Shown here: one piece after another, positions 11,234 through 56,458 of the stretch
How positions within the stretch are numbered: position 1 is the first letter of the stretch
Layout of the letters: the number at the start of each line of letters is the position of its first letter
NCBI GenBank assembly: GCA_016946835.1
Contig: JACVTC010000062.1
Span: forward strand, 877,501 to 941,500
Direction of reading: 5' to 3'
DNA: 64,000 nt
Origin: Neocallimastix lanati (nom. inval.)
Lineage: Eukaryota > Neocallimastigomycota > Neocallimastigomycetes > Neocallimastigales > Neocallimastigaceae
Notes under the pieces: generated by a model
What the model was told of the DNA's origin: nothing
The model's database searches: none
What the model saw: only the letters and a program-made list of their open reading frames with translations
Program-made: the position numbers and the translations under genes

Positions 11234-11234
11234 A
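7693..11234 (-). mobile_element. LINE copy A (family 1), 5'-chimeric, lacks 3' tail
   Basis: A minus-strand non-LTR retrotransposon of the same family as the copy at 18780-20210, to which it is nearly identical from about 7700 to 8880. Similarity to that copy stops near 7695, so the 3' UTR and poly(A) tail are missing here. The 5' side is cut inside the endonuclease domain and joined at about 11198 to a 36-bp piece of reverse-transcriptase coding sequence; the poly(A) tail of copy B starts a few bases further on, at 11238. Confidence 0.88.
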
Positions 11235-11237
11235 AAA

Positions 11238-12231: not shown

Positions 12232-12262
<31 letters not shown>

Positions 12263-18225: not shown

Positions 18226-18266
<41 letters not shown>

Positions 18267-18740
18267 CAGGGAAGAGAATACACTTCCAAAACTTTATTAA
18301 ATTTTATTTAAAAAAATACATGTAGGTGAAAAGTACATTTGAAATTAAAAATAAAAAATAAAAAAATAAAAAAAAAATAAAAAAGCTCGAAAATACTATG
18401 TATTTCGGCAAGTTGTACTATGCGGGAATTTTTCCCTTCCTATCAAATAAAAAAGAAATAAAACCTAGAAGTAACATCTTTAAAATAGATAGTGTGGTGT
18501 CCACTAAACTCTCCCCGGACTCATCATTTATTGAACTACTAGGGAGAGATTCATCCTTCGTAGAAATAGATGACGATCCTGTATTATCATTATGCCTTAT
18601 CAGTACGACGTCGACGCTCTTGGATAAGTTTGGTATTTTGCAATACCTATCAAATAATAGCTCAAACGAACTACTAATGATAGGTATTGCACTTGTTAAG
18701 AATTCCGCCAAGCCCACAATTTTTGGAACAGGTGACTCAG

Positions 18741-18744
<4 letters not shown>
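18226..18744 (-). mobile_element. LINE copy E1 (family 2), short 3' fragment
   Basis: 38-T tail (18226-18263), family-2 3' UTR, and the last coding part only: an open frame at 18418-18744 ending DRKGKIPA. Its 5' end, at GACTCAGATGA, runs straight into the 35-T tail of copy E2. Confidence 0.9.

Positions 18745-18782
<38 letters not shown>

Positions 18783-20206: not shown

Positions 20207-20210
<4 letters not shown>
18745..20210 (-). mobile_element. LINE copy E2 (family 1), 5'-truncated
   Basis: 35-T tail (18745-18779), then a 3' UTR starting ACGGCAGCAAACTTG specific to family 1. The body is nearly identical to copy A. It is 5'-truncated at 20210 (GGAATTTGAAAG), where the 31-T tail of copy F starts. 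Confidence 0.92.
19013..20210 (-). pseudogene. LINE E2, post-RT and zinc-motif fragment of ORF
   Basis: The frame is open from the truncation to the stop at 19013 and shows the natural family-1 C-terminus (NRFKSNRTTTTKSVNAEET, ending DHNFVS) that copy A lost by frameshift. It contains KSRKYTWTKESRTLKRK, the zinc motif FCPCCKSNKQWISHWLIDC, and a polymorphic Asn/Ser repeat. The endonuclease and catalytic reverse-transcriptase motifs are absent. Confidence 0.85.
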
Positions 20211-20244
<34 letters not shown>

Positions 20245-23200
20245 CAGGGAAGAGAATACACTTCCAAAAACTTTATTAAATTTTATTTTAAAAAATACAT
20301 GTAGGTGAAAAGTACATTAGAAATTAAAAATAAAAAATTAAAAAATAAAAAATAAAAAATAAAAAAGCTCGAAAATACTATGTATTTCGGCAAGTTGTAC
20401 TATGCGGGAATTTTACCCTTCCTATCAAATAAAAAAGAAATAAAATTTAGAAGTAACATCCTTAAAATAGATAGTGTGGTGTCCACTAAACTCTCCCCGG
20501 ATTCATCATTTATTGAGCTACTAGGGCGAGAATCACCCTTCGTAGTAATAGATGATAATCCTGTATTTTCATTATGCCTTATCAGTACGACGTCGACGCT
20601 CTTGGTTAAGTTTGATATTTTGCAATACCTATCAAATAATAGCTCAAACGAACTACTTATGATAGGTATTGCATTTGTTAAGAATTCCGCCAAGCCCACA
20701 ATTTTTGGAACAGGTGACTCAGATGAACCTTTGAAAAGTAGTTCATTTAAATGTCTCTGTTCCCCACTATCGAAATGTAGTTCATTTAAAACTAAAGTCC
20801 CACCAAGAAGGAACAAGTATATATAATGATTGATATAATCTTCAAAATCAGAAATAGAGTCATAGGAAGAAAGAGGATTAAACGCTCTAATCTTCCTAAG
20901 GAATAAAACATAGAGATCATCGATGAAATTTAAAGAATTCCATCTAAAAGATGCAAGAGCATCGCATTTAAAAATCCAATGTTCAAAAGATTGATTACCT
21001 TCACCACAACATGGGCAGGACTTTGGACAATCTTCTGAAACTCTACCCATTCTAATAGCAATAGTAGTATTGTATTTATAACCACAGCGTAAACGTATAA
21101 TCCACGAAAATCCTAAGTTGAATTGGGGATATTTTAAGCTAAGCATTATTATAGCTTTATTGTTTGAGAACTTGTTACTATCGTAGTTTTGACCTTTAAT
21201 ACCTTGAAATCTGGAAACTGATTTCCAGTAACGTTCTATAATATCGTCATATTTTACACATTTATATTTTTTGATTTTTTTATATAGTGTTCTAGATTCT
21301 TTAGTCCAGGAATAATAAGGCATTTTGGGAATAGATTTAATAAGATCCTTTATGATACAGTTTGATTTACTCCATTTTGCAAATGATTTAATCTGTAAGG
21401 CTGCGCAGATACCAGCAATAGGAGGGATGCTTAGATCTCGAGATAAAGCATAAGTACTCATTGTTGAATTATGTCTAATATAGTCATTGTTTTCTGTATT
21501 TGTTTTACCATTTTTAGAGAAGGAACCGATACACCAAAATAGACCAGTATTAATTAATGTTTGAATTCTAGCCGTTCTAGATTTGTTTGAACCAAGTAAA
21601 GGAGAATAATAAATTACTTTACTAATAACAAAGGATTGAAGAACTTTTTTCTTGTATACAATAGGAATAAGTTTATTTGAAAAGAAACGTGTAAAAGAAA
21701 GAAGGGATTTTCTAACTTTAAAATGCATGTGAGATATAATGTGTTCTAGTAGGAGATCATCTGAAAAAGGAATACCAAGATAGACATAACTAGAAACTTT
21801 AGGAATATCATTCTTTCCTAAATAGAAGGTTGGATCACTATAGTTTGGAGGAGGTTGGAAGTTCATTGGTTTTATAACCATAGTTGCACACTTTTCAATA
21901 CCAAAAGTCATTTCATTTAAATTAGCCCATTTATGTACCTTTTTTAATAATTTTTCTAAATTTTTTGCACTTGGAGCAATGAGAACAACATCATCAGCAA
22001 AGAGTCCACCACAACACTTTTTTCTTCCAACATTAACACCATACTTTTCACAGTCATTTAGTATATCATTGATGAATAAATTGAATAAGATTGGAGATAA
22101 AGGACAACCTTGACGAACACCTCTTTTAATAGGAAATTCATTTGATAACATTGAAGCAAATCGAGCACGTGCTTTAGATGAAGTATATAAATTACAAAGA
22201 AAATCAAAACATTTACCGCGTACTCCATAGTGATATAATTTAGTAAGAATGTTAAAAATAGGAACTGAATCATAAGCTTTTTTAAGATCTAAAAAAGCTA
22301 AATATGTGAATTTTCCTTGGAATTTTCTTCTTTGACAAATTTCTCTAACGGAAATGAATAAACTAATGCATTCTTCGCGGTTGCGAAATCCAAATTGTTC
22401 AGGTCTAATGAAATTGTGTGAGAGTGCGTAAGTAGATATTCTATCTGTTATAATTTTTGAAATGATTTTAAGTCCAACGTTAATGAGAGAAATACCTCGA
22501 TAATTACTACAATCTGATAGGTCACCCTTCTTAGGAATTGATACAATAGAAGCTGAGTTCCATTTTTTAGGAAATGACCCATTCCATATTTTATTAAATA
22601 TCAATTTTAGACACTTTCCAGCAGCAGGATGTGATTCTAGTAATTCTTCGTTACAAAAAAGAGCTTTGTAGAATTCAATCGGAATACCATCGGGGCCGGG
22701 TGCTTTGTTATTTTTCATCGATGAAATAGTTTTTTTAATATCTTCAATCGTAATAGGACCATTTATATTCCAGGTAGTGGATCTAAGACTAATATTCCTT
22801 AAAGCATGATTCCAGTAATTACGATTAAGGCTGTGACCTGAGGGATCCGAAGCAAGATCTTTATAATATTCAGCCCATCTATCTAATTGCTTTGAAGGAG
22901 AGATAATATCTTGACCAAACTTAGATTTAATGCAAGTAAGGGAGGTAGATGAATATGATGGTTTAGCCATTTTCTTTAAACATCTCCAACCATTTTTGAA
23001 ATCTTTATTCAAAAAATAATTACCTATTTTTACTATATTAGCCTTAAATCTAGCAGAACGAAATTTACTCTTAGTTTTCTTGATTAATTTGCAAAGTTTT
23101 TCATATTTATTAAATTGTTCAAGGTAATTATCAACATTTTCACAATTAAAGTAAGGCTTAATATTCCGAAATGCAATATGTTTTTCATGAGATAGTTTTT

Positions 23201-24563
23201 TAATGTAATAAGGACAATGAAAAGCAGAGCCCTTTAAATTTGTTGGAATAAAAGCCTTAATATCTTTCCCGATATTATTTGCTGTATTGATAAATTTTTC
23301 TACCATTTCATCAGCCGTAAGCGAATTGTAATGAGAATCAAGGTCATTTTCTAGGATTGAAAAATAATTATGTGATAAAATATCTGAATTTTTTGTTTTA
23401 CAAATATGAGTTGACCATTTAGAAACTTTAGTAGGCCTTATAAAACCATCGGAGAGAACTTTGTTGCAAGAAAGTAAAATAGGTTTATGATCAGAAATAC
23501 CATAAAACGAAGTACAAACCGAGGTTTTATTAATATGGGATGCCAAAGCCTCATTATAGATGACATGATCAATGCAAGATGATCTAGTACCTTTAGCATA
23601 TGTAAATTGATTACCATATAAAGGAGCAATATACCAATTAGGAAAATTATTTGAAATGTATGTTTTGATCTTCTTTAATGACATGTTAAAGTCACCAACT
23701 AGGACAGCCGGAACATTTTTTCTATTGTGAAAACGTAACCATTGAGAGAGTTCATCAAAAGCAACTAGTCTTGCTTCCTTCCATTTGCTTTGAGGGAAGT
23801 AGATATTACCAATAGTACATTTTTGATTCCAAAAAGAAGTAATATTAACTGAAATGATATATTTGTATAAAAACGGTTCTTGGAAGAAAGAGCAAGAAGA
23901 ATGAACACCAATAAAGAGTCCTCTCATACCAGGGGTTTTAGGATTAGCTTTAAGGAAAACTGAGTTGTAATATGGAATTAAAGGTGATGAAACATCTTTT
24001 GGTAGATATTTACTTTTTCCAGTTTCTTGTAGACAGATACATATAGGTTTAAAAGTAGAGTTGAGATACAAAATACTATCTCGCTTTTCAGTATTCCAAC
24101 CGTTAATATTCCAACTAACACAGAGATTAAAGAAAGAAGAATTTGAATTTAGATGGCTAGAGAAAAAATCTTTTGCCATAGGATTAAGTTCAACATCAAT
24201 GTTTTTAGATTTCCTCGACTTGTTCATTTGATTCAGTTTATTACACAAGGACCAGGTAATTTTAGCTGTTTCAGGAATTTCATCTCTTAAGAAATTTAAA
24301 ACATAGAAAAAGATGAGATCATTTTTGTATTTATTAACCCTAATAATGAAGTATGAGCCATACCTTGGAGAAAAAAGTTTTTTAACACATGGAATAATTT
24401 CATTGTAGTAAGGGATCTTACTAATAACTTGTGCCATTAGTTTTCTAGGGGACCAAGAATTAAGGTCATGAATGAAAATAAGGCTATAATTATTCATATG
24501 ATTTCCGAAGCAGTAGAAACCACGATGGAAGGGAGTAGTGTTAACAGAACTAGAAGCATCCAT
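20211..24563 (-). mobile_element. LINE copy F (family 2), full-length coding region
   Basis: 31-T tail (20211-20241), family-2 3' UTR (20242-20399), and a single uninterrupted ORF. The 5' UTR continues above 24563 to an undefined point. It is the best candidate for an active source element of copies B, D and E1. Confidence 0.92.
20400..24563 (-). CDS. Intact LINE endonuclease-reverse transcriptase polyprotein
   Basis: 1387 residues from the ATG at 24563 to the stop at 20400, with no frameshift. The APE-type endonuclease spans about residues 145-365: SWNINGWNTEKRD (150-162), CLQETG with the metal-binding Glu about 180, VGDFNM (289-294), SDHKPILL (357-364). The reverse transcriptase spans about 615-930: APGPDGIPIEFYKA (621-634), SIPKKGDLSDCSNYRGISL (675-693), RPEQFGFR (720-727), LDLKKAYDSVP (758-768), RGVRQGCPLSP (814-824), and the catalytic FADD (855-858). 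The C-terminal zinc motif SCPCCGEGNQSFEHWIFKC (1182-1200) fits C-x2-C-x8-H-x4-C, like the zf-RVT found in plant L1 elements. No separate gag-like ORF1 is seen upstream. It catalyses target-primed reverse transcription of its own mRNA. Clade assignment (L1-like, Tad or other) needs a tree. Confidence 0.95.
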   Translation of the reverse strand: MDASSSVNTTPFHRGFYCFGNHMNNYSLIFIHDLNSWSPRKLMAQVISKIPYYNEIIPCVKKLFSPRYGSYFIIRVNKYKNDLIFFYVLNFLRDEIPETAKITWSLCNKLNQMNKSRKSKNIDVELNPMAKDFFSSHLNSNSSFFNLCVSWNINGWNTEKRDSILYLNSTFKPICICLQETGKSKYLPKDVSSPLIPYYNSVFLKANPKTPGMRGLFIGVHSSCSFFQEPFLYKYIISVNITSFWNQKCTIGNIYFPQSKWKEARLVAFDELSQWLRFHNRKNVPAVLVGDFNMSLKKIKTYISNNFPNWYIAPLYGNQFTYAKGTRSSCIDHVIYNEALASHINKTSVCTSFYGISDHKPILLSCNKVLSDGFIRPTKVSKWSTHICKTKNSDILSHNYFSILENDLDSHYNSLTADEMVEKFINTANNIGKDIKAFIPTNLKGSAFHCPYYIKKLSHEKHIAFRNIKPYFNCENVDNYLEQFNKYEKLCKLIKKTKSKFRSARFKANIVKIGNYFLNKDFKNGWRCLKKMAKPSYSSTSLTCIKSKFGQDIISPSKQLDRWAEYYKDLASDPSGHSLNRNYWNHALRNISLRSTTWNINGPITIEDIKKTISSMKNNKAPGPDGIPIEFYKALFCNEELLESHPAAGKCLKLIFNKIWNGSFPKKWNSASIVSIPKKGDLSDCSNYRGISLINVGLKIISKIITDRISTYALSHNFIRPEQFGFRNREECISLFISVREICQRRKFQGKFTYLAFLDLKKAYDSVPIFNILTKLYHYGVRGKCFDFLCNLYTSSKARARFASMLSNEFPIKRGVRQGCPLSPILFNLFINDILNDCEKYGVNVGRKKCCGGLFADDVVLIAPSAKNLEKLLKKVHKWANLNEMTFGIEKCATMVIKPMNFQPPPNYSDPTFYLGKNDIPKVSSYVYLGIPFSDDLLLEHIISHMHFKVRKSLLSFTRFFSNKLIPIVYKKKVLQSFVISKVIYYSPLLGSNKSRTARIQTLINTGLFWCIGSFSKNGKTNTENNDYIRHNSTMSTYALSRDLSIPPIAGICAALQIKSFAKWSKSNCIIKDLIKSIPKMPYYSWTKESRTLYKKIKKYKCVKYDDIIERYWKSVSRFQGIKGQNYDSNKFSNNKAIIMLSLKYPQFNLGFSWIIRLRCGYKYNTTIAIRMGRVSEDCPKSCPCCGEGNQSFEHWIFKCDALASFRWNSLNFIDDLYVLFLRKIRAFNPLSSYDSISDFEDYINHYIYLFLLGGTLVLNELHFDSGEQRHLNELLFKGSSESPVPKIVGLAEFLTNAIPIISSSFELLFDRYCKISNLTKSVDVVLIRHNENTGLSSITTKGDSRPSSSINDESGESLVDTTLSILRMLLLNFISFLFDRKGKIPA

Positions 24564-30183: not shown

Positions 30184-31474
30184 TATTTATTAATAAATAA
30201 TAAATAATAAATAATTAAATAATAAATAATAAATAATAAATAATAAATAATAAATAATAAATAATAAATAATGAATAATGAATAATAAATAATTAAATAA
30301 TAAATAATAAATAATAAATAAATAATAAATAATAAATAATTAATAATAAATAAATAGTTAATAATAAATAATAAATAATTGAATAATAAATAATAAATAA
30401 TAAATAATAAATAATTGAATAATAAATAATAAATAATAAATAATAAATAATAAATAATATATAATAAATAATAAATAATAATAAATAATAAATAATAAAT
30501 AATAAATAATAAATAATAAATAATAAATAATAAATAATAAATAATAAATAATAAATAATAAATAATAAATAATAAATAATAAATAATAAATTATAAATAA
30601 TAAATAATAAATAATAAATAATAAATAATAAATAATAAATAATAGATAAATAATAAATAATAAATAATAAATAATAAATAATAAATAATAAATAATAAAT
30701 AATAAATAATAGATAAATAATAAATAATAAATAATAGATAAATAATAAATAATAAATAATAAATAATAAATAATAAATAATAAATAATAAAATAAATAAT
30801 AAATAATAAATAATAAATAATAAATAATAAATAATAAATAATAAATAATAAATAATAAATAATAAATAATAAATAATAAATAATAAATAATAAATAATAA
30901 ATAATAAATAATAAATAATAAATAATAAATAATAAATAATAATAATAAATAATAAATAATAAATAATAATATAATAAATAATAAATAATAAATAATAAAT
31001 TATAAATAATAAATAATAAATAATAAATAATAAATAATAAATAATAAATAATAGATAAATAATAAATAATAAATAATAAATAATAAATAATAGATAAATA
31101 ATAAATAATAAATAATAAATAATAAATAATAAATAATAAATAATAAATAAATAATAAATAATAAATAATAAAAATAATAATATATAATAAATAATAAATA
31201 ATAAATAATAAATAATAAATAATAAATAATAAATAATAAATAATAAATAATAAATAATAAATAATAAATAATAAATAATAAATAATAATAATAATAATAA
31301 ATAATAAATAATAAATAATAGATAAATAATAAATAATAAATAATAAATAATAAATAATAAATAATAAATAATAAATAATAGATAAATAATAAATAATAAG
31401 TAATAAATAATTAATAATAAATAATAAATAATAAATAAATAATAAATAATAAATAATAAATAATATATAATATA
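30184..31474. repeat. TAAATAA minisatellite array, about 1.3 kb
   Basis: The unit TAAATAA (reverse complement of TTATTTA) is repeated on the order of 170-180 times with scattered variants (TAGATAA, short insertions). Because 7 is not a multiple of 3 and no frame of the minus strand yields a stop, it creates two long fake ORFs of IIYYLLF heptapeptides. About 170 bp of non-repeat sequence separates it from the inverted array upstream. Confidence 0.95.
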
Positions 31475-31476
31475 TA

Positions 31477-31757
31477 ATGAGTTTGTCAAGACATATTCTT
31501 TTAAAAGACTCAAATAAAGATAAAAGTACAGAAAATTTGGAATATGTTTCTTTTAATAAGAAAAATAAAATTCTTCTCATAAAGATAAAACTAGTGATTT
31601 AAATAGTGATAAAAAATAATAATGAATGCTTTTATGAATTTAAAAAAAAAAAATATCAAAAATAGTTTCTGATGAAAGTAGTGGGGAAAACAACGAGAAT
31701 CAAATTGATGCAAGCTCTAAAAGTAATTTATTTGATAAATTAAGATTTATCAAATAA
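31477..31757 (+). pseudogene. Decayed hydrophilic coding fragment
   Basis: It begins ATG at 31477 (MSLSRHILLKDSNKDKSTEN), shifts frame near 31575 (SHKDKTSDLNSDKK), then reads KIVSDESSGENNENQIDASS to a stop at 31757-31759, which falls inside the hairpin. The composition is typical of host Ser/Asn/Lys-rich proteins. Family unknown. Confidence 0.35.
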
Positions 31758-33723: not shown

Positions 33724-36700
33724 TTATATTTTTTTAATCTTATCAGAAATATCATTTTCATTGTAAACATAATCTATTCTTAAAGGGTAACCTTCGTTCA
33801 TAAAATAAGGGGATTGATTACCACTATTATCATTAAAAATAATTTTTATTTCATCAATTTCATCATAATAATATAGTAAAATTTCATCTTGAATTTCATA
33901 GCTGTAAAAATCATCTAGAGAATCTGTCATTTTATAACCAGGCCAGTCACTTATTTCTCGATCACCAGAATATAAATAAACATAAACATCCATTCCCCAA
34001 TAATGCGGTTTCTTGAAATAGATAAAGGAAGAAGATGATTCATTGTTATTCCTATTATTAGAAGATGAAGAAGATGATTCAAAGCTATTTCTATTATTAT
34101 TAGAAGAGGAAGAAGATAATGAGAAATATTTCTTAGCCTCATCAACGATATTATGAGAATTTTCTTCATTTGTTATATTATTCCTATTAGTTAAATCATT
34201 TTCATTAGTTGTATTATGAGCGTTAAATTTGTTAATCTTATCAGAAATACCATTTTCATTGTAAACGTAATCTATTTTTAAAGGATAACCTTCGTTCATA
34301 AAATATGGGGATTGATTACCACTATTATCATTAAAAATAATTTTTATTTCATCAATTTCATCATAATAATATAATACAATGTCATCTTGAATTTCATAGC
34401 TGTAAAAATCATCTAGAGAATCTGTCATTTTATAACCAGGCCATTCACTTATTTCTCGATCACCAGAATATAAATAAACATAAACATCCATTCCCCAATA
34501 ATGCGGTTTCTTGAAATAGATAAAGGAAGAAGATGATTCATTGTTATTCTTATTATTAGAAGATGAAGAAGATGATTCAAAGCTGTTTCTATTATTATTA
34601 AAAGAGGAAGAAGATAATGAAAAATATTTATTAGCCTCATCAACGATATTATGAGAATTTTCTTCATTTGTTATATTATTCCTATTAGTTAAATCATTTT
34701 CATTAGTTGTATTAAGAGTATTAAATTTGTTAATCTTATTAGAAATATCATTTCTATTGTAAATGTAATCTATTCCTTTAGTAGTATTGTTGGATTTGAT
34801 GATATTATTATCGTTAAAATGAGACTTAATGCTAATTATTTTTTTAATTAAAATATTATTTTTGAAATTTTTGTAGTGTGGATCATGAGATTGAATAAAT
34901 TCAAATTCTTTTAAGAAATATTCAATAAAACTGATAAATAATTCATTATCTGTTTTTTCTGAAAGAGAATGATTTCTTTCAGCAATTTTTTCTGAATAAT
35001 AATCAGCCCATAACTGGTCAATATGACTCATTAAAAACTTAGAGTATGGCTTCAATTCGGATTTTAGAGTTGATTTAATTTTTGAATCTTCAAAAAGCTG
35101 AAGAAGTTGTCTCTTGAAAGAGAAAAAGTGGGAGAGAACTTTATAACAAACTCTTTCTGTTTCGATAAATTTCATTCTTCTATTTGATTCACGAGTAATA
35201 TATTCATTTCTTATTTGATAGTAATATTTAGTTTTATCAATATAGGAATTTGGATTATTATTCCAAGAAGATGTTTTTACGATTTCTTGAACAAACCATT
35301 CATCTTTTGAAAACACAATTTTGGCTTTTCCTTTTTGACCTTGTCTTCCTGCACGACCAATTCCTTGGTATTCAATTCGAGAATTTTTAGGGAAAAATCC
35401 AAGAATAACATATAAACCTCCAACCTCTAATGCTTCTTGACTTAATAAGATGTCGGTTCCTCTACCAGCTGCATTAGTAGAAACTAATATACTTCCAATA
35501 TTTCCAGCTTTTTCCAAAATATATTCTTCTTTTTCTTTTTGGGCATCGTTTAATAACAATGGATCCATTCCTAAATCTTTTAACCTATTGAAAAAGTCAA
35601 TACTTTCTTGTATATTTTCTAAAAGAATTAGCATAGGTTGTTTTAAGTTATTATTCTGAATTAATTTAATAATTCTGTTGTATTTTTGTTCTTGATTGTC
35701 TAGAATTTCTGATTTTTCAATGATCAGTTTTTCGGTGAAATTGCGAGGTAAATGATATAATTCTACATTGTACATTTCGCTAATTTCATTTTTTTCTATT
35801 TCTTCTCCTATAGTACCTGTTAAACCAAAAATAGTTTGATAATTTTGGAAATAGGTTGGATGACAGATAGATGCAATAACGGATGACTCTTCTTCCGGTA
35901 TTAATCCTTCTTTTACTTCAACAAATTCGTGAACTCCGTTACTCCATCGAGAACCATGGAGAATTCTACCCGTATCACTAGAAATAATTTGTATTTCTTT
36001 TTTTTGTAACTTTTCATTAAACCCAATAATATAATCTTTGTTGATAGTGTGACTCAAGGCACTTTTAGCTGCATCCACCCATTTACGTAATTTTTCATTA
36101 CTGATTTGAAGTAATTCAGTTTGATGAATTCCATTTTCATAGTTATTCAAGAGATCTCTTATATCTTGAATGTTTGGAAATATTGGATGATCTTTTACAT
36201 ATTTAAAGATCGGAATATATACCCAATTATAATGATATTTAGAAGAATAGGCAATACGAGCACTACTTAAAGCCGTATCAAGGAAAAGATTGTCACATTC
36301 ATCAACAATAGAGACATGATATTCTCTGGTAATTAATTGGTTTTTATCTATAGGTTTAGTCATATTTTTATTTTGAATGAAAACGCCCTCTCTTAATAAA
36401 GTAAATTCAAAGTCAGTATTAGTACCGTATAAAATAATACCATCGTAGTCTTCTTTAGCGGGGTTATGATCAATTATATTACTAGAAGAAATACCAAAAA
36501 GAGAAAATAATTTTTTAAATTTAACTTGATCTCTTTCAGCTAAATAATGAGTAGAAGTAATAACATCTACAAAATATCCCATAAGAGCATTAGATAATGC
36601 TAACATGGCAATTATCATACTTTTTCCTTCCCCAGTCTTTATTTGAGCTATTCTACCACGAATATTTTTCTGTTTTTGATTTTGGTTTTTTGTATAGTGA

Positions 36701-39700
36701 ATTAAAAATGATCCTATAGCTAAAATTTGAATTAAATAAGGAGTAAATTTCATGACTTCTTCAAATCCTCTAGAAAGTATGGCTAATAATTTAGCCATGT
36801 TTTCCATCGTTGGTAATTGTCTAAATTCTTGTCCGAATTGTCTTCCAAGTTCACTGTAGTTTTTATTCGTACCAAATTTAACGTAATAAATATTAAAGTA
36901 TTGGGCCAATTTTTTTAATTGAGGGTTATCGTCCAAACCAATTCTTGAAAGTAACATATCTAATTTATTGGCAAAATCATCAAAATTAAATTCCGGTAAC
37001 TCATTTAATGTATTTAATTTTAATATAATATCGCTTAAACTCTTGGAATTATCAATTAATTTATCGATTTTTTTTAATTTTCCAGATTTGACAATATAAA
37101 TTTCAGCTGCTTTAATAAATGAAAATAATTCTTTGGTAATTACTGAAAAAGATTTCATTTTTAGAATCTTTAACATGTTTTCAATTAAACTAATTTTTTC
37201 AGTTATAATGAGATGTTTAGAATTTTTAAGATATTGATCACATTTTAAAGAAATATCTAATTCCTCCGGACTAATGTTTTTCATGGATGACAAAACGGTT
37301 TTAATAAATTTATCAATTGGTAAAACAGAATCAATGCACTCATGAATTATAGGATATTTTTGAATTAATTCATCGACTTCTTCACTCAGTAAAGGAGGAA
37401 TAAAGTTAGCATATTTAATTTGAATCAATGCCATGTGAGGTTTTAAATTACACATTCTTATAAGATTATTTATAAAGTCATAAGCTGAAATATTAAATTT
37501 AATTGATTTAAGATTTTCAAGAATTTGAATCGGTTGACTTTCTACTAATAATCTGAAATCTTTTATGGTAGGAATTAAATTATTACAAACATTTATTTTT
37601 GCATTAGATGACAAAGCGGAAATAATTACACTGTTAATAATTTTAACAAAATATTGAGTATTTTCATGACTATTACAAAATAAAACTAGTTCGTTCATTT
37701 CATTTAATACTGCTTCGGCATATTCAGAACTTATTTGAGATAAAATATAATTCAAAAATATTTCACAAATTTCTAATGAAGATTTATTTCCGTTGACTTT
37801 AGAGAGTATTGTTATAAACTTATTAATTAAATGGGCTTTATTAGATAAATACCATTTTTTAAAAACAAGTAAAGTATTTAAGTTTCCAATGATTGACTTA
37901 TATTTAATAAAAAATGTTTCATTAAAAATTTCCAATTGACAATATTTAGAAAGAATAGAATTAAAACCATTATAGGATTTGTAATCAATGATTTTTTGAT
38001 GAGATAATTCTTCTAATAATTCATTTTCATTTACATTATCATTACTACTAGTTTGGATCACCTCATCAATTGACTCTAATTTATTAACTGAAATTTGCGA
38101 AAGTTTATCTTTCACTTTTTCGTTTTTAGATTTATTATTATTATAATAGATAATAAATTGGTCAAGTTCAAAAGAAATATCTAGTAAATTCATATTTTTA
38201 ATATCTCTGAGAGTTAATTTATAAAATTCCATGAATAACAGTGTTATATCAAAATTATTAGATTTTATGGATTGTTGGATAAATGAAAGATTACTATTGT
38301 TTTTAATAAATGTCTTATTATTGCTATTCATATAAGATAAAAATAATGCAACTAAGGAAAAATGACCTTTATCGGAAGCTACATGTAATGGTGTTTCACC
38401 TTCTTTATTTTGAATGTTCAACAGTTTATGAATAAATTCTTCCTCTACTATCGATAAAATTTCACTAGCACAAGACATACTATTGGAATAACAACATAAA
38501 TGTAAAACATTATTACCATATTTATTTTGAGATAATATTTCTATATCAGTTTCAATGAAAAAATTGACCATACTAGGATTATTATTAATACAACTAATCA
38601 TCAATAAATTATTCATATTTTCATCTGAAATAGAATTAAACTGGAAAATAGAATTACACGTTATATACATATTAACATATTTTTCTGCATTCGGATTTTT
38701 AACTAAAGAAATGAGATGTGAATTATTAAAACTGTTATGGATCATAAATGGAGTATTAAACAAAAATTCCAGCATTTTTTTATCACCATTCTCAAGAGCA
38801 ATAGTTATAGCATCACAGTGATTAATATCTTCAATGAAAGGATTGGCACCATATTGTAATAATAATTTGAAAGTATCTAAGGAGGATGATTTTGCAGCAC
38901 AATGCAACGGAGTAGAGTAAGAATTAAAATGTGATAAAAATGAATGGTTTTCTTTGCAAATTACTTTTTGATTAATGTCATAATTTAAATATTCTACTAA
39001 ATACCTTACCGTATTTACTTTATTCATATAACAAGATTCATGTAAAGCGGTAGTATTTATAGAGTAGTTTTCAATTAATTTAGAAGGATAAAATAATGAC
39101 ATTAAAAATAAACCAGTATTATTTCCTATTTTAGAAGCTAATATGTATGGAGTTTCTCCTTTTCTATTTTGAAGTAATACATTTGAAGGTTTCCTTGATA
39201 TTATTGTTAATGTTGTTTCATAAAATAGTTTTAGGGATTCTTCATCATAATTCGTTGTTGATATGGGTTCCCTGAAAAGTAAATGTAAATAAGAATCTCC
39301 TTCCTTATTACAAGTTTCGAAATTAATATTATGGCCATTAATGATGTCTTTCACCATTTCAAAATTTCTGTTCTCAATGAGATTCATTAATATGGTATTT
39401 CCTTCAATATTCTGATGATTAAAATCAATATTTTGAGAATGAGATTTAAACAAATCTTTTATATCTAATCCGGGATATTTAGATAAGATATAAAATAAAT
39501 TTTCTTGATTATTATTATAATAATTAAAAATATAATTATATTTATTTAAAATATTCTTAAAATTTTCAATTTCAAGAAGATCCATCATTTTCAATTCATT
39601 TATGTTACTAATAATCTTATCAAGACTTAAAAGAATATAATTACTTTTCTTTTTTCTATCAATATTTAATGAATCAAAATAATCAAAAATAAATTCTATT

Positions 39701-42700
39701 GTATTTTTATATTCAACAGTATAATCAAATGGAGAGTATTGTTGTTCGTTTTCTATGAAAAAGAATTCTGCATAGTTATCTGGTAATGATTTCATAGCCC
39801 ATAAATTTCCATATTTCATAATAAGATGAGGTAATAATTCTTTATCCTTTGTCAATTCTGTTAGCCCAACATTAACTTCTTGTAAGAGATAACGCAATTC
39901 TAACTCTTTTTCATTTTCAATTAGTTTTTCTTTTTTAGTCAATAAAGTTTCAATTGATTCTAAGAGTAGAGGATTATATCTATATTTATTAAATCTTTCA
40001 GGGTAAAATTCAGCTAATATAGAGAGATTATCTTGTCTTGTTTTACCATTTTTTTCTAGTTTAATCAAATCATTTGAAGATATCATTTTCTTAAGTTTAA
40101 CCATTTCTCTAAATACACTAGGACGAGTATACTTAATTGCTGTAAATAAGTCAACTGTGGATAAATCAATCCATTTAAAATTTTCAATAAGAATCATAAA
40201 AGTAGTTGAAGTAACCTTTGGTGTATTACATAATGAATTAATGGAAATGCGAGATTTTTTAAATTTCGGTAATTCCAAAAGTACAGATATTATTCTTAAA
40301 AATGAAGTTTTATTCTGGATAGCTACTTTACAAATCATATTACTTAAAAGAGTATTAAATTTTTTATCAACAGTATCAATAAAATTGAATATGTGTTGTA
40401 ACATCAAAATATCATCTGATTCAATACAACAATCAAATATTGTTTCTGAGTGATAACTTTCATATAAATCACATCCGAAGCCAATAGCTTCTTTAATCCA
40501 ATCGATTAAACCATTTTTTCCAATGAACGTCATGAGGGGATACTTTTTAAGAGCAAATAATTGAGATAAATATTTAATAGAATCCTTTTTTCTTCCTTTA
40601 CAAGCAGCATCAATAAGTTCAATGCAATTATCATAATTTGTAATTGGAAGTTCATTTTTCATGGAGGAAATCACCTGTTCAATTTCTTTAATTTGTCCAT
40701 TTTTAAATAATTCCTTTAAATATTTTATTTTATCATGACTTTTCCTATGGTTATTATATGAATTGTAAGCATTCTTTATTGTTTCTTTAAATCGTTTATT
40801 ATATTCTGTTGTTTGAAATTGTTGATAACAATCCAATCTACCTGAATAGATTGCCGAATAATAACAATTATCTCCATAACAATCTTGAATGGATGGATTA
40901 GCGATATTATTTCTTATTAATAATTTAGTACATAAAATTGAATTTTTGGATGAGAAATGGAAAGGTGTTCTTTTATCTGGTCTTTGAATATTAAAATTAA
41001 TATTTTTATAATTATTGGTATGATCACTTTGAAAAATTTCAATAATACCTTTTAAAGTTTCAAAACTTGAATTTTGGCATACTAAATGTAAAGGACTATT
41101 ACCAAATTTTTTATCTTGAATGGTCATATTTCCATTTAAATTTATAATTCTTTTAGTAATATCCGGCATATTATATTCGCATACATAATGTAAATATGTT
41201 TTATTTAATTCATTAGTGTAATTAATATCTCCTATTTTATTTGGATGATCTAATAATAAATTAATCATCATTTCATCTTTATTGAAAATTGCCGTTAATA
41301 ACGAAGTGATTCCATTAGGAGAAGGTGATGAAAAGTTGGAATTATTTTTTTTCATTAATTCTGAAACCATTTTATAATTACCCATAGTTACTGCAATTAA
41401 TTCTGGGGTTACACCGGAATCTGATGTTGAATTTAAATCAGAAGGTTTTATAGATTTAAAATCACCTAAAAGAGCTTTATAATGTCCTTGAGAAAACCCA
41501 TAAAAGTCCTTAGAAGTTTTATTATTTTCATTTTTCATTACTGACTCTATTAACTGATTCATATTTCTATCATAATTAGTTTTAACTAATTTATTTAAAG
41601 AATCTCCATGTGCAGGAGCGTTAATTATTTCAGATTTAATACTGTAATATTCATCGGTATTTCCTTTAATTATATTATTGAAAAGACTTTCACCAATATT
41701 ACTTTCATTTAACCACAAATTTTTATTTATCTTTATAAGACATCCTCCACGAGTTTCTATTTTCGAAACAACATCAGATGATAAATCAAAACATAAAGAT
41801 TGCAAATTCAAATGATACTGAATTTTTAATGATTCTAAAATTTCATCATTTATTTCATTAAAATCAAAAGCGTAATTTCTTAAATCATTTTCCAATCTTG
41901 TTAAAGAATTTTTTAATTTTGTTTCATCATTTTCCATTGAGGTTAATAACTCAAGTTTTTCGTTTAAATGTTTATTAAATTCATTTATTTTTTCATTATA
42001 TATATTATCATAATATTTATTAATTTCCTTTTCATTTTCTGTTAAAATATTTTTAACTTCTACTGAATTCATAAATTCTTCAACTCTACCATATACATGA
42101 TATTTAAGACAATCTGCTTCAATTTTTTTTCTAAAATCATTTCTTGATATATTGATATTTTCTCTTCTTTTATTTTCCAGTTCATTTTTAAATTCTTGAA
42201 TATTATTATTGCTTTTTTCGATAATTATTTTTCTTGTTTTGTTTAATATTGATCTATGATCATTTATTAATTCATTTGCTATAATATTTAATTCTCTTAA
42301 AGTTTTACTCTCTATCAATTTTTCTAGGTCGAATGAATAAGTATCATTAATATTAAAACCTTTTTTTAAAGATTTAATGCTGTCATCTAATATGAAGCAT
42401 GATTTTATGACTTTATAACATACTAAATAATTTAAATATTCTGAAAATTTACCAATTACAACATTGATGCCAAGTTTTTCATCATTGGTAATATCAACCA
42501 AAAACGAATTATTGTCATCAAGTAATGGTTTCAATTTTTTTTCATTGACATATTTTGTGATTTCTTTTTCGATAGATTCATTATTTATTTTCATAGCCTT
42601 TATGTCATTTCGATTTTTTGATTCTAGAAATCTAAAACTAATTATTTTATTTAATATTATTTTTTGAACGTTTGAAAAAATAGGAATTAAATCTTTCATG

Positions 42701-44130
42701 GTAATTGAAACATCTAATTCTATAGTTTTTTTCACTGGTAATGGTGGAAATATATTTGGTATATTTGGCATGTATTTTTTATTTCCATTAATTAAAGAAT
42801 TAGAAAAATTTAAAAAAACACCACAAGCTTGAATATTAGGTAAATAATGTAAACAGAAAATTATTATATTAAGTAATTCAAAGTAAGGTTTAAAGTATGG
42901 AACTAATTTCATGTGAGTTTTAACATTAAATGCCATTAATTTATGATAAATTTCATTATCTTTGATTATCTTTTGTTTATTTTCATCACTGTATGCAGAT
43001 GCTTTAAATTCTGGTGAAATATCGATATCATATTCTACATCATAATAGCATTTCGGAAGAATTAAATTTTTGTAATAGGAGATTTTATTATCAATTTTAC
43101 CAATAATTCTAAATGCAGACAAAAATATTTGACTTTGGTTATTTTTTGAAGCTTTCATATCATTTAACGATTCATAAGCTATTTCATTTTTATCTCCAAT
43201 AATTGATAATAAATATTTTTTCATATTAATAAAATTATTTTCTAAATAAAATTTATCAGTATTTTTTGTTTTTTGCCATTCATATATAAATTCTTCTTTG
43301 AAAAAACCTCCATTGACATAACATTTAAGATAATAATCAAGCATTGTTATAATACATCCTACTAAAGTATGTTTATAATATTCGTCCATTATTGGATATA
43401 ATAATCCATCTTTATTAAAATTAAGTGAAATAAAAGGTAACTTTTTATCAACTAAATAACCAATGGATAATTCATTCAATATAGTTGAAAAAACTTCATT
43501 CATATTCTTAAATTTGGCACCGTTGATTAATAGTTTATTATTTAATAAATTTAAGATGTCCTGTTCTGTACTAGTAGAATACTTTTTAAAAGAGATAAAA
43601 AGATTATCACTAAAGCAAAAATTATCTTTAAAATTTGGTATTATTTTCGGGATGATAAATTCTACACCTCCTGTGTCTCCAGAACCTGTAATTTCTGCAG
43701 CTTTTATTGAATTGTTCGTAAACCTTTCAATAAAGTTATCATATATAAATCCTCCAATATATTTCCCAATATGTGAAAGTAATTTTCCACCGAAATAAAT
43801 TCCAACAGCAGCAAATATGGCACCACCAATAAAGGAGCCTAACAATGCACTACCCCCCAAAGCAAGAGCAACATCAAAACCTAATCCAGCCCCAAAAGAT
43901 CCTAATATTGCTCCACCATATTTTGAACCAAAAAATCCAAGACCAGCGCTAGTAGCCTCTTCAAATGCCCCTCTATAGTTTCCAGTATAAATATTTACAC
44001 CTGTCATTATAGCACTAGAACCAATACTAAGAATACTAGAATATCTAGAATATCTTAACCCAGTTTTCCTATTAAAAGTTTCATAAACCCCACCAGTAAC
44101 ACCAAAACCATCTATAATATTATCCCACAT
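33724..44130 (-). CDS. Giant ankyrin / SecA-like ATPase / CBM26-like protein
   Basis: One uninterrupted 3468-residue frame from the ATG at 44130. Domains in order: glycine-rich hydrophobic segment about 45-135 (GFFGSKYGGAILGSFGAGLG, LGSFIGGAIFAAVGIYFGGK), possibly membrane-inserting; helical, partly coiled-coil region about 600-780; ankyrin block about 900-1100 (KFGNSPLHLVCQNSS, RTPFHFSSKNS); ankyrin block about 1570-1950 (STPLHCAAKSSSLDTFKLLL, GETPLHVASDKGHFSLVALF); SecA-type motor about 2390-3010; Ser/Asn linkers and two CBM26-like modules. SecA signs: Walker A KTGEGKS (about 2497-2503), STHYLAERDQ, YGTNTDFEF, Walker B VDECD (about 2608), HGSRWSNGVHEFVEVKEG, GLTGTIGE, STNAAGRGTDILL (about 2881), and arginine-finger motif GRAGRQGQKG (about 2923). 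No N-terminal signal peptide. SecA is a bacterial/plastid protein-export ATPase, so its presence in a fungal nuclear gene is unexpected. Function is unknown; transfer from bacteria is inference. Confidence 0.9.
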   Translation of the reverse strand: MWDNIIDGFGVTGGVYETFNRKTGLRYSRYSSILSIGSSAIMTGVNIYTGNYRGAFEEATSAGLGFFGSKYGGAILGSFGAGLGFDVALALGGSALLGSFIGGAIFAAVGIYFGGKLLSHIGKYIGGFIYDNFIERFTNNSIKAAEITGSGDTGGVEFIIPKIIPNFKDNFCFSDNLFISFKKYSTSTEQDILNLLNNKLLINGAKFKNMNEVFSTILNELSIGYLVDKKLPFISLNFNKDGLLYPIMDEYYKHTLVGCIITMLDYYLKCYVNGGFFKEEFIYEWQKTKNTDKFYLENNFINMKKYLLSIIGDKNEIAYESLNDMKASKNNQSQIFLSAFRIIGKIDNKISYYKNLILPKCYYDVEYDIDISPEFKASAYSDENKQKIIKDNEIYHKLMAFNVKTHMKLVPYFKPYFELLNIIIFCLHYLPNIQACGVFLNFSNSLINGNKKYMPNIPNIFPPLPVKKTIELDVSITMKDLIPIFSNVQKIILNKIISFRFLESKNRNDIKAMKINNESIEKEITKYVNEKKLKPLLDDNNSFLVDITNDEKLGINVVIGKFSEYLNYLVCYKVIKSCFILDDSIKSLKKGFNINDTYSFDLEKLIESKTLRELNIIANELINDHRSILNKTRKIIIEKSNNNIQEFKNELENKRRENINISRNDFRKKIEADCLKYHVYGRVEEFMNSVEVKNILTENEKEINKYYDNIYNEKINEFNKHLNEKLELLTSMENDETKLKNSLTRLENDLRNYAFDFNEINDEILESLKIQYHLNLQSLCFDLSSDVVSKIETRGGCLIKINKNLWLNESNIGESLFNNIIKGNTDEYYSIKSEIINAPAHGDSLNKLVKTNYDRNMNQLIESVMKNENNKTSKDFYGFSQGHYKALLGDFKSIKPSDLNSTSDSGVTPELIAVTMGNYKMVSELMKKNNSNFSSPSPNGITSLLTAIFNKDEMMINLLLDHPNKIGDINYTNELNKTYLHYVCEYNMPDITKRIINLNGNMTIQDKKFGNSPLHLVCQNSSFETLKGIIEIFQSDHTNNYKNINFNIQRPDKRTPFHFSSKNSILCTKLLIRNNIANPSIQDCYGDNCYYSAIYSGRLDCYQQFQTTEYNKRFKETIKNAYNSYNNHRKSHDKIKYLKELFKNGQIKEIEQVISSMKNELPITNYDNCIELIDAACKGRKKDSIKYLSQLFALKKYPLMTFIGKNGLIDWIKEAIGFGCDLYESYHSETIFDCCIESDDILMLQHIFNFIDTVDKKFNTLLSNMICKVAIQNKTSFLRIISVLLELPKFKKSRISINSLCNTPKVTSTTFMILIENFKWIDLSTVDLFTAIKYTRPSVFREMVKLKKMISSNDLIKLEKNGKTRQDNLSILAEFYPERFNKYRYNPLLLESIETLLTKKEKLIENEKELELRYLLQEVNVGLTELTKDKELLPHLIMKYGNLWAMKSLPDNYAEFFFIENEQQYSPFDYTVEYKNTIEFIFDYFDSLNIDRKKKSNYILLSLDKIISNINELKMMDLLEIENFKNILNKYNYIFNYYNNNQENLFYILSKYPGLDIKDLFKSHSQNIDFNHQNIEGNTILMNLIENRNFEMVKDIINGHNINFETCNKEGDSYLHLLFREPISTTNYDEESLKLFYETTLTIISRKPSNVLLQNRKGETPYILASKIGNNTGLFLMSLFYPSKLIENYSINTTALHESCYMNKVNTVRYLVEYLNYDINQKVICKENHSFLSHFNSYSTPLHCAAKSSSLDTFKLLLQYGANPFIEDINHCDAITIALENGDKKMLEFLFNTPFMIHNSFNNSHLISLVKNPNAEKYVNMYITCNSIFQFNSISDENMNNLLMISCINNNPSMVNFFIETDIEILSQNKYGNNVLHLCCYSNSMSCASEILSIVEEEFIHKLLNIQNKEGETPLHVASDKGHFSLVALFLSYMNSNNKTFIKNNSNLSFIQQSIKSNNFDITLLFMEFYKLTLRDIKNMNLLDISFELDQFIIYYNNNKSKNEKVKDKLSQISVNKLESIDEVIQTSSNDNVNENELLEELSHQKIIDYKSYNGFNSILSKYCQLEIFNETFFIKYKSIIGNLNTLLVFKKWYLSNKAHLINKFITILSKVNGNKSSLEICEIFLNYILSQISSEYAEAVLNEMNELVLFCNSHENTQYFVKIINSVIISALSSNAKINVCNNLIPTIKDFRLLVESQPIQILENLKSIKFNISAYDFINNLIRMCNLKPHMALIQIKYANFIPPLLSEEVDELIQKYPIIHECIDSVLPIDKFIKTVLSSMKNISPEELDISLKCDQYLKNSKHLIITEKISLIENMLKILKMKSFSVITKELFSFIKAAEIYIVKSGKLKKIDKLIDNSKSLSDIILKLNTLNELPEFNFDDFANKLDMLLSRIGLDDNPQLKKLAQYFNIYYVKFGTNKNYSELGRQFGQEFRQLPTMENMAKLLAILSRGFEEVMKFTPYLIQILAIGSFLIHYTKNQNQKQKNIRGRIAQIKTGEGKSMIIAMLALSNALMGYFVDVITSTHYLAERDQVKFKKLFSLFGISSSNIIDHNPAKEDYDGIILYGTNTDFEFTLLREGVFIQNKNMTKPIDKNQLITREYHVSIVDECDNLFLDTALSSARIAYSSKYHYNWVYIPIFKYVKDHPIFPNIQDIRDLLNNYENGIHQTELLQISNEKLRKWVDAAKSALSHTINKDYIIGFNEKLQKKEIQIISSDTGRILHGSRWSNGVHEFVEVKEGLIPEEESSVIASICHPTYFQNYQTIFGLTGTIGEEIEKNEISEMYNVELYHLPRNFTEKLIIEKSEILDNQEQKYNRIIKLIQNNNLKQPMLILLENIQESIDFFNRLKDLGMDPLLLNDAQKEKEEYILEKAGNIGSILVSTNAAGRGTDILLSQEALEVGGLYVILGFFPKNSRIEYQGIGRAGRQGQKGKAKIVFSKDEWFVQEIVKTSSWNNNPNSYIDKTKYYYQIRNEYITRESNRRMKFIETERVCYKVLSHFFSFKRQLLQLFEDSKIKSTLKSELKPYSKFLMSHIDQLWADYYSEKIAERNHSLSEKTDNELFISFIEYFLKEFEFIQSHDPHYKNFKNNILIKKIISIKSHFNDNNIIKSNNTTKGIDYIYNRNDISNKINKFNTLNTTNENDLTNRNNITNEENSHNIVDEANKYFSLSSSSFNNNRNSFESSSSSSNNKNNNESSSSFIYFKKPHYWGMDVYVYLYSGDREISEWPGYKMTDSLDDFYSYEIQDDIVLYYYDEIDEIKIIFNDNSGNQSPYFMNEGYPLKIDYVYNENGISDKINKFNAHNTTNENDLTNRNNITNEENSHNIVDEAKKYFSLSSSSSNNNRNSFESSSSSSNNRNNNESSSSFIYFKKPHYWGMDVYVYLYSGDREISDWPGYKMTDSLDDFYSYEIQDEILLYYYDEIDEIKIIFNDNSGNQSPYFMNEGYPLRIDYVYNENDISDKIKKI
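33753..34748 (-). repeat. 498-bp tandem duplication encoding CBM26-like modules
   Basis: Units 33753-34250 and 34251-34748 (166 codons each) are almost identical, and the start of a third degenerate edge lies at 34749. Each unit encodes a Ser/Asn-rich linker and a module FIYFKKPHYWGMDVYVYLYS, WPGYKMTDSLDDFYSYEIQD, IDEIKIIFNDNSGNQSPYF. The aromatic pattern, WPG..M and IFN..G.Q are hallmarks of family 26 starch-binding modules. The two copies differ by a few substitutions only. Confidence 0.85.
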
Positions 44131-54757: not shown

Positions 54758-56458
54758 ATGCGTTACTCTTTTATTTTAGGTATTGTTCTTTCATTATCTT
54801 TAGGTACATTTGGTTTACCAGTTCCAGAAGAAGAATCAACAGTAGGTGTTGAACCAATTGCTAGTCCACTGGCTGGTCCATTGGCTGGTCCAATTGATAC
54901 TCCAGCTGCTAAGACTTTACCAGTTAAAGCTATTCCAGCTACTAAGGCTTTACCAGAAGCTCCAGCTCCTAAGACTCTACCAGTTAAGGCTGTTCCAGAA
55001 GCCGAAGCTCCAGCTGCTAAGACTTTACCAGTTAAGGCTGTTCCTGAAGCCGAAGCTCCAGCCACTAAAGCTTTACCAGAAGCTCAAGCTCCAGCTGCTA
55101 AGACTTTACCAGCTAAGGCTATTGAAACCGAAGGTGCTGAACTTTTATTAGATGAAGCTGAAGTTCCAGCTGCTAAGACTTTACCTGTTAAGGCTGTTCC
55201 AGAAGCTGAAGCTCCAGCTGCTAAGACTTTACCAGTAAAGGCCGTTCCAGAAACTGAAGCTCCAGCCACCAAGGCTTTACCAGAAGCTCAAGCTCCAGCT
55301 GCTAAGACTTTACCAGTTAAGGCTGTTCCAGAAGCTCAAGCCCCAGCTACCAAGGCTTTACCAGAAGCTCAAGCTCCAGCTGCTAAGACTTTACCAGCTA
55401 AGGCTGTTGAAACTCAAGGTGCTAAACTTTTATTCAGTGATGTTGAAGCTCCAGCTACTAAGGCTTTACCAGAAGCTCAAGCTCCAGCTGCTAAGACTTT
55501 ACCAGTTAAGGCTGTTCCAGAAGCTCAAGCCCCAGCTACCAAGGCTTTACCAGAAGCTCAAGCCCCAGCTACCAAGGCTTTACCAGAAGCTCAAGCTCCA
55601 GCTGCTAAGACTTTACCAGCTAAAGCTGTTGAAACCGAAGGTGCTGAACTTTTATTAGATGAAGCTGAAGTTCCAGCTGCTAAGACTTTACCAGTTAAGG
55701 CTGTTCCAGAAGCCGAAGCTCCAGCTACTAAGGCTTTACCAGAAGCTCAAGCTCCAGCTGCTAAGACTTTACCAGTTAAGGCTGTTCCAGAAGCCGAAGC
55801 TCCAGCCACCAAGGCTTTACCAGAAGCTCAAGCTCCAGCTGCTAAGACTTTACCAGTTAAGGCTGTTCCAGAAACTCAAGCTCCAGCTACCAAGGCTTTA
55901 CCAGAAGCTCAAGCTCCAGCTGCTAAGACTTTACCAGCTAAGGCTGTTGAAACTCAAGGTGCTAAACTTTTATTCAGTGATGTTGAAGCTCCAGCTACTA
56001 AAGCTTTACCAGAAGCTCAAGCTCCAGTTGCTAAGACTTTACCAGTTAAGGCTGTTCCAGAAGCTGAAGCTCCAGCTACTAAGGCTTTACCAGAAGCTCA
56101 AGCTCCAGCTGCTAAGACTTTACCAGTTAAGGCTGTTCCAGAAGCCGAAGCTCCAGCTACTAAGGCTTTACCAGAGGCTCAAGCTCCAGCTGCTAAGACT
56201 TTACCAGTTAAGGCTGTTCCAGAAGCCGAAGCTCCAGCTACTAAGGCTTTACCAGAGGCTCAAGCTCCAGCTGCTAAGACTTTACCAGTTAAGGCTGTTC
56301 CAGAAGCCGAAGCTCCAGCTACCAAGGCTTTACCAGAAGCTCAAGCCCCAGCTGCTAAGACTTTACCAGTAAAGACTATTCCATCTGCTAAGACTTTACC
56401 AGCAAAAACCATTCCAGCTGCAAAGACTTTACCAGTTATTGCTAAAACTATTGCTTAA
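54758..56458 (+). CDS. Secreted Ala/Pro/Lys/Glu tandem-repeat protein
   Basis: 566 residues from the ATG at 54758. A clear signal peptide MRYSFILGIVLSLSLGTFG (about 1-19) precedes LPVPEEE. Nearly all the rest is tandem repeats of a 27-residue unit built from APAAKTLPVKAVPEAE and APATKALPEAQ. At intervals the pattern is broken by a distinct insert, KAVETEGAELLLDEAEVP or KAVETQGAKLLFSDVEAP. Ending is KTIPAAKTLPVIAKTIA. No Cys, no membrane segment after the signal, and no known catalytic domain, so an extended cell-surface or secreted structural protein is likely. Base composition is much richer in G+C than the spacers, as expected for expressed coding DNA. Shadow ORFs in other frames (QLLRLYQ-type) are artefacts. 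Similar start and style to the gene at 63422. Confidence 0.9.
   Translation: MRYSFILGIVLSLSLGTFGLPVPEEESTVGVEPIASPLAGPLAGPIDTPAAKTLPVKAIPATKALPEAPAPKTLPVKAVPEAEAPAAKTLPVKAVPEAEAPATKALPEAQAPAAKTLPAKAIETEGAELLLDEAEVPAAKTLPVKAVPEAEAPAAKTLPVKAVPETEAPATKALPEAQAPAAKTLPVKAVPEAQAPATKALPEAQAPAAKTLPAKAVETQGAKLLFSDVEAPATKALPEAQAPAAKTLPVKAVPEAQAPATKALPEAQAPATKALPEAQAPAAKTLPAKAVETEGAELLLDEAEVPAAKTLPVKAVPEAEAPATKALPEAQAPAAKTLPVKAVPEAEAPATKALPEAQAPAAKTLPVKAVPETQAPATKALPEAQAPAAKTLPAKAVETQGAKLLFSDVEAPATKALPEAQAPVAKTLPVKAVPEAEAPATKALPEAQAPAAKTLPVKAVPEAEAPATKALPEAQAPAAKTLPVKAVPEAEAPATKALPEAQAPAAKTLPVKAVPEAEAPATKALPEAQAPAAKTLPVKTIPSAKTLPAKTIPAAKTLPVIAKTIA

Follow-up and report, generated by a model that had tools for sequence, protein, structure and literature searches.

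A giant protein of Neocallimastix lanati combines a SecA-family motor with ankyrin repeats and an N-terminal domain also found in bacteria

We analysed a 64,000-nucleotide stretch of the genome of the gut fungus Neocallimastix lanati (the window; assembly GCA_016946835.1, contig JACVTC010000062.1, forward-strand positions 877,501 to 941,500), and within it a single gene, at 33724..44130 on the reverse strand, that encodes a giant protein of 3,468 amino acids. The protein contains a conserved N-terminal domain (N-domain), two blocks of ankyrin repeats and a motor of the SecA family. This chassis, with an N-domain of approximately 420 residues, is common to Piromyces, to single-gene contigs of about 10 kb, to a choanoflagellate and to bacteria that include Legionella, Coxiella sp., Chlamydiae and others; the giant protein belongs to the set in which N-domain, ankyrins and SecA-like motor occur in one protein or in adjoining genes. 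We infer that the chassis may be an ATP-driven puller of polypeptides that carries a changeable N-terminal effector and is used in conflict between organisms, a reading to which we assign a probability of about 45%.

The gene and its SecA-type motor

An initial annotation of this DNA had described one frame of about 10.4 kb with two ankyrin blocks, a SecA-type motor and two CBM26 modules, and this description stands. The frame is ATG-started and free of stops, and Pfam places ankyrin block 1 at residues ~861–1130 (40741..41550; this and the other features of the gene are on the reverse strand) and block 2 at residues ~1561–1960 (38251..39450), both with approximate limits. Ank_2 scored 166.6 bits in 8 stretches and CBM26 89.9 bits in 2 stretches. 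The relatives from Piromyces sp. E2 and P. finnis, the latter lacking the N-terminal extension (N-extension), are collinear with the giant protein to the end of the motor, and this argues against two separate fungal genes, an outcome that the annotation had named among those refuting its proposal.

The motor (residues ~2400–3085, 34876..36933) is recognized by Pfam, by its sequence match to SecA and by its predicted structure. SecA_DEAD (PF07517) scored 140.9 bits over residues 2431–2777 (cut-off 24.6) and P-loop_SecA (PF21090) 73.6 bits (cut-off 27). The segment between the ATPase lobes, which had been equated with the preprotein cross-linking region of SecA, matches SecA_PP_bind (PF01043) above its cut-off (29.1 bits against 23.5; residues 2665–2738, 35917..36138). 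Bacillus subtilis SecA matched the giant protein with an E-value of 3.5e-51, which excludes a chance resemblance. An ordinary DEAD-box helicase was considered and rejected, the generic DEAD model scoring 21.7 bits, below its cut-off of 26, and SecA fitting better both by sequence and by predicted structure; profile search and structure comparison thus agree with the earlier assignment of the motor to the SecA family.

The expected motifs occur in SecA order: Walker A TGEGKS (residues 2499–2504, 36619..36636), Walker B DECD (2610–2613, 36292..36303), VEVKEG (2737–2742), motif V AGRGTD (2888–2893, 35452..35469) and motif VI QGIGRAGRQG (2922–2931, 35338..35367). Across 36 aligned sequences, no catalytic residue of Walker A, Walker B, motif V or motif VI is less than 90% conserved, and several are invariant. 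Walker A is invariant in this alignment and in one of 16 rows, as are Q2922, G2925, R2926, R2929 and G2931 of motif VI. D2610, E2611 and D2613 are invariant in the 16 rows, and in the 36 rows D2610 is invariant and the other two at least 90% conserved; motif V is invariant in the 16 rows, and its conservation in the 36 is 90% or higher throughout. Among the SecA structures listed, those nearest to the motor model were the SecY-engaged states 5eul, 6itc, 3din and 3dl8, with query-normalised TM-scores of 0.62–0.63, the remainder scoring at most 0.57. Following the second ATPase lobe, long helices (residues ~2966–3083, 34882..35235; model helices 587–702, inside the SecA-aligned range) are predicted to occupy the place of the helical scaffold of SecA and are named by that position. 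On the model, the motor carries an intact SecA ATPase motif set in a SecA-like predicted fold.

SecA motors drive protein export in bacteria and plastids. The motor of the giant protein falls far short of the NCBIfam models for export SecA (TIGR00963, 197.7 against 800; NF006630, 248.9 against 862; TIGR03714, 200 against 930), and no SEC-C tail occurs among the 11 Pfam matches listed for the protein. Pfam matched no STAND, NACHT or NB-ARC ATPase of the kind that marks NLR-like immune receptors, the only ATPase models matched being those of SecA and helicases.

A shared chassis with a variable front end

The motor search returned 265 proteins at E ≤0.001 out of 2,501 scored, and the best 120 of the 265 were listed; P0001 is the giant protein itself, and the identical row P0002 was dropped before counting. 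Within the fungal group, motor identity to the window protein was complete in one case and then 86%, 72%, 66% (Piromyces sp. E2) and 63% (P. finnis), the 86% and 72% relatives being taken as fungal from their place among the matches. Next among the matches listed came a block of 23 proteins (P0007–P0029) with 47–54% motor identity, the longer of them on contigs of about 10 kb. Compared part by part with P0004–P0006, the motor is 68–72% identical, the N-domain 66–69%, the ankyrin blocks 56–63% and the linkers 40–55%.

Beyond the motor and the ankyrins, residues ~150–620 are also common to the relatives. This region contains the N-domain (residues 153–575, 42406..43674), a feature absent from the initial annotation, which is defined by our own profile and by a confident model (residues 152–575, block predicted local distance difference test (pLDDT) scores of 70–97). 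Because first-pass matches longer than 250 residues went into building the profile, its matches to 48 of 120 distinct proteins, including P0059 of the choanoflagellate Monosiga, are partly by construction; it also matches 14 open reading frames (ORFs) at bacterial loci. No solved or viral fold matched the N-domain model at E ≤0.001. A search with the N-domain found 26 proteins, seven of which (P0122–P0128) lack a listed SecA domain; one of the seven is an ankyrin protein of L. nautarum, and P0122–P0124 lie on 9–11-kb contigs where the motor could be in another frame. Two contigs classed as viral in IMG/VR (L098 and L099) encode proteins of about 3,556 amino acids with a SecA-like motor, that of L098 falling in another branch.

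Ahead of the N-domain the relatives diverge. The glycine-rich, glycine-zipper-like N-extension of the giant protein (residues 1–152, 43675..44130) is 33–34% identical to those of P0004 and P0005, against 66–69% in the N-domain, and residues 1–151 are modelled with pLDDT below 50. It includes a moderately hydrophobic glycine-rich stretch (residues 83–118, 43777..43884; Kyte-Doolittle maxima 1.68–1.96), also not previously described, and the first 200 residues hold nine GxxxG motifs. Forty-four N-extensions fell into 16 clusters by BLASTP (1e-3), a procedure that may split short or simple sequences too finely, the glycine-rich extension of P0001 among them. Three of 20 N-extensions examined had a Pfam match above cut-off: a PPPDE peptidase in P0007, PARP in P0030 and a nucleoside 2-deoxyribosyltransferase in P0048. 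Below cut-off were a glycine zipper in P0004 (16.5 against 25) and a Scabin-like ADP-ribosyltransferase in P0055 (18.4 against 27).

The boundary between extension and N-domain is marked by a short motif, TGGVEF in the giant protein (residues 153–158, 43657..43674). GG[VI] was found 10–50 residues ahead of the start of the N-domain profile in 53 of 62 sequences (48 proteins and the 14 bacterial ORFs), compared to 351 of 12,400 length-matched random windows (2.8%) and 196 of 2,850 windows within N-extensions (6.9%); the sequences bearing the motif are related, so the cases are not independent. A second motif, around SYN, was seen about 20–30 residues before the GG junction in bacterial N-extensions (L018, L020, L022, L023, L024, L026, L028, L034 and others).

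In bacteria the chassis occurs mostly as two genes. From 226 stretches confirmed by scanning genome contigs, 80 loci were kept, and N-domain and motor were both seen at 14 of them, all within a set of 21 (L018–L038); at the other seven, several of which are at contig ends, only the motor was seen. Thirteen of the 14 encode the two halves as separate ORFs on a shared strand and one (L032) as a fusion. The N-domain gene is first in 10 of the 13 split loci and the motor gene in three, with the two genes within 70 bases of each other or overlapping by stop-to-stop frames in 11, and separated by 1.8–2.1 kb in L027 and L031. Hosts of the split loci are Legionella and other Legionellaceae, Coxiella sp., Parachlamydia-type Chlamydiae, and Neisseriaceae and Gammaproteobacteria metagenome-assembled genomes. 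Mapped on the tree, the fused or split character must have changed at least five times to give the 48 fused and 12 split rows, indicating that fusion or splitting occurred more than once, a count that is neutral as to direction. At three Parachlamydiaceae loci, related ORFs lie near the motor gene (L027:7894-8673, L031:6301-7896 and L036:8019-8831), directly before it in L036. Their proteins have a hydrophobic stretch (maximal 19-residue means of 2.07, 1.90 and 2.12) and 9, 10 and 0 GxxxG motifs, respectively; they recall the glycine-rich extension at the N-terminus of the fungal protein, as a resemblance without demonstrated homology. By eye, the L031 protein ends in a sequence resembling an OTU protease.

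We also examined the descent of the motor. A quick tree was built from 139 motors, hand-picked from 121 proteins and the loci and required to have sufficient motor coverage. In it, 125 rows, the window's included, stood apart from 10 export SecA rows with a Shimodaira-Hasegawa-like approximate likelihood ratio of 100. The five fungal rows formed one group (100) nested among 17 rows that have single-gene contigs (100), and a careful tree of 35 rows gave the same nesting (100/100). A topology in which the 23 contig rows form a group that excludes the fungi was rejected by the approximately unbiased test (p = 8.5e-8), a hypothesis framed after the quick tree; one grouping the fungi with P0007/P0011 was not rejected (p = 0.39). 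Letter composition is unlike, and branches are long, in some outgroup rows. The contigs themselves are scarcely longer than their genes: among the 17 rows of P0007–P0029 predicted to have at least 3,180 amino acids, the contig has only 75–564 bases beyond its coding part in 16 and 1,541 in P0025, and one of 10 comparison rows is equally tight (P0041, 301 bases). Gene-sized chromosomes have been reported for Dasytricha and Ophryoscolecidae (PMC11316547). The single-gene contigs are probably from rumen ciliates, and the giant gene may have passed from ciliates to fungi. It had been proposed that a bacterial SecA was transferred and then fused to eukaryotic-style repeats in the fungus. Three findings speak against this proposal: N-domain, ankyrins and SecA-like motor are already together in bacteria, the motor clade is far from export SecA, and the rows from fungi are nested among the single-gene contigs. 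These findings leave assembly from SecA within the fungus unsupported.

The CBM26 modules seem to have a different history. Module 1 (34306..34521, 61.1 bits) and module 2 (33808..34023, 61.4 bits) are tandem duplicates, in a repeat with a unit of 498 bases and 94% matches. CBM26 is found in the window protein (two motif copies) and P0003 (three copies), and in none of P0004, P0005 and P0006. The genome holds at least 13 CBM26 matches, the nearest to those of the window being in three amylase-like proteins (named by eye) at 35–42% identity. The modules look like a late addition within fungi.

Proposed function and alternatives

The preferred reading is that of a pulling chassis used in conflict. 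The ankyrins and the N-domain would hold a target or partner. The SecA-like lobes and clamp, as they turn over ATP, would pull a polypeptide, which could be the bound target or the N-terminal module of the protein itself; this capacity is proposed by analogy with SecA, for which such pulling is established. Pulling would in turn arm or deliver the N-terminal module, which in the fungal protein is a glycine-rich stretch that might insert into a membrane, and the CBM26 modules could tether the protein to starch or glycogen. A role as effector, toxin or immune device is suggested by the differing N-terminal enzyme modules, by gene transfer and by the company the genes keep; these modules, the size of the protein and its patchy spread, which takes in intracellular bacteria and protists as well as gut fungi, fit conflict better than housekeeping. 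The suggestion in the initial annotation that the protein translocates or remodels a substrate, or acts against microbes, is possible. A more elaborate version is less probable: a self-contained weapon with a membrane-inserting tip exchangeable at GG[VI], an ankyrin arm, and a SecA motor threading tip or target across a membrane, which gut fungi acquired ready-made, probably from rumen ciliates, after separate bacterial genes had fused.

Several observations weigh against a role in conflict. The function of the chassis is deduced from sequence and model. The PPPDE peptidase match of P0007 is marginal (29.3 against a cut-off of 29.2), and in 17 of the 20 N-extensions examined, that of P0001 included, nothing in Pfam scored above cut-off. 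The hydrophobicity of the glycine-rich stretch in P0001 is no more than moderate, and this stretch falls in the part left unmodelled (pLDDT <50). No signal peptide or targeting piece was recognized by eye in the giant protein, and its delivery to other cells is unaccounted for. The 199-Mb assembly has two SecA_DEAD places, the giant gene and a divergent, decayed paralogue on another contig (G000:C511:300878-301423; L007), 48–58% identical in its longer pieces and with no trace at that locus of giant-protein residues 1–752 or 1133–2592; one intact copy and one decayed paralogue make no expanded arsenal. Fused forms occur in bacteria also (L032, P0038 of Jidaibacter, and P0056, which shares an identical motor with Legionellaceae locus L029), so the contrast between bacteria and eukaryotes is not clean. 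A polymorphic toxin system would be expected to have an immunity gene nearby; clustering of neighbours by BLASTP found no third gene in more than three of the 21 bacterial loci, except for an ankyrin-piece-like cluster in six, and PADLOC models match through the ankyrins, or weakly.

Two alternatives deserve some weight, though we consider each unlikely. The protein could be an intracellular housekeeping factor, retained by gut fungi, whose motor unfolds or extracts ankyrin-bound proteins while CBM26 places it on glycogen or starch granules. The intact motor would serve such a role, relatives exist in four other fungal sequences, and the CBM26 modules sit in a protein with no visible signal peptide, whereas six of the seven other CBM26 frames viewed start with signal-like sequence (by eye). 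However, P0004, P0005 and P0006 lack CBM26 and yet share the remaining chassis with bacteria and other lineages, the N-terminal modules differ, and the paralogue has decayed. An intracellular immune sensor with the logic of nucleotide-binding leucine-rich repeat receptors, in which ankyrins sense, the SecA-like ATPase switches and the N-terminal module kills or modifies, has about the same low standing. In its favour, a variable N-terminal piece, an ATPase and repeats are found in one chain, but the genome has one intact copy, and the ankyrin blocks change more slowly than the linkers.

Less probable again is a membrane translocase, in which the motor would engage fungal Sec61 or a hydrogenosomal channel for export as SecA does with SecY. 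The SecY-engaged states nearest to the model favour it; the lack of a recognizable targeting piece and the scores far below the export-SecA cut-offs do not, and ordinary SecA is also present in all five bacterial genomes examined that hold the giant-protein motor branch (G001–G005). That the gene is a transferred relic without a present role, as the decayed paralogue might suggest, is very improbable given a 10.4-kb frame that stays open at ~22% GC (the window mean over 32 rows), intact catalytic residues, and an N-domain and motor that are the parts best conserved relative to P0004–P0006.

Elsewhere in the window, several ORFs resembling retrotransposons of the long interspersed nuclear element (LINE) type lie at 7784-24563 on the reverse strand (an endonuclease and a reverse transcriptase were recognized by eye, and one ORF has 1,387 amino acids), including near-identical ORFs at 11403-12149 and 17394-18140. 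An array of 188.6 copies of a 7-base unit at 30191-31478 opens a false 406-amino-acid frame. Two repeat-rich proteins on the forward strand, at 54758-56458 and 63401-64000, have signal-like N-termini and KALPE/KSLP-type repeats by eye.

Relation to known SecA-like systems

If a pulling chassis used in conflict is the correct reading, the SecA motor has been put to a second use, that of driving giant conflict proteins which move between bacteria, ciliates and fungi. With the defined partners that the chassis supplies, one could ask whether polypeptides bound by ankyrins are pulled by a SecA-like motor, and further N-terminal effectors could be sought by way of the GG[VI] junction.

Compared to export SecA and SecA2, the motor aligns in both ATPase lobes, the cross-linking domain and the following helices by sequence and model, but it is internal to a giant protein, lies far below the NCBIfam cut-offs and forms a separate clade. 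SecA-like modules are described in Amoebophilus effectors (PMC3482391) and SecA-like domains in giant actinobacterial toxins, where they are predicted to aid secretion (PMC8195603). These resemble the present family in joining a SecA-like ATPase to effector or toxin modules; the chassis, the two-gene form and fungi are not described in the available text of either article. A polymorphic toxin system would set a variable toxin module beside a constant junction; here the GG[VI] junction stands in 53 of 62 sequences and a named enzymatic module in 3 of 20 N-extensions, and the variable end is N-terminal, whereas C-terminal toxin domains are mentioned in the abstract of PMC3482391. Legionella lfa2470, tabled as 'SecA DEAD-like' among proteins thought to have been transferred from eukaryotes (PMC4256840), is likewise a SecA-like protein of an amoeba-infecting bacterium and is compared here by description; that article's available text does not mention an adjoining ankyrin gene.

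Among the open-licence papers listed by our literature searches, we found no publication on the chassis, its two-gene form or a gut-fungus SecA. The closest precedents are the giant eukaryotic-type secA genes of eukaryotes (insects and Daphnia) and Wolbachia, published since 2013 (PMC3639933), and the SecA genes of phage WO (PMC5062602). These too, as far as the available portions of the articles describe them, place a SecA domain in very long, patchily distributed and transferred genes, but the N-domain/ankyrin/SecA chassis is not described there. In our tree, which was built without the Wolbachia and insect genes themselves, the rotifer, Hydra and amphipod rows belong to another branch of 36 rows (support 88) without the giant-protein N-domain. 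Giant eukaryotic secA genes are thus already known, and the N-domain/ankyrin/SecA chassis is a variant on that theme.
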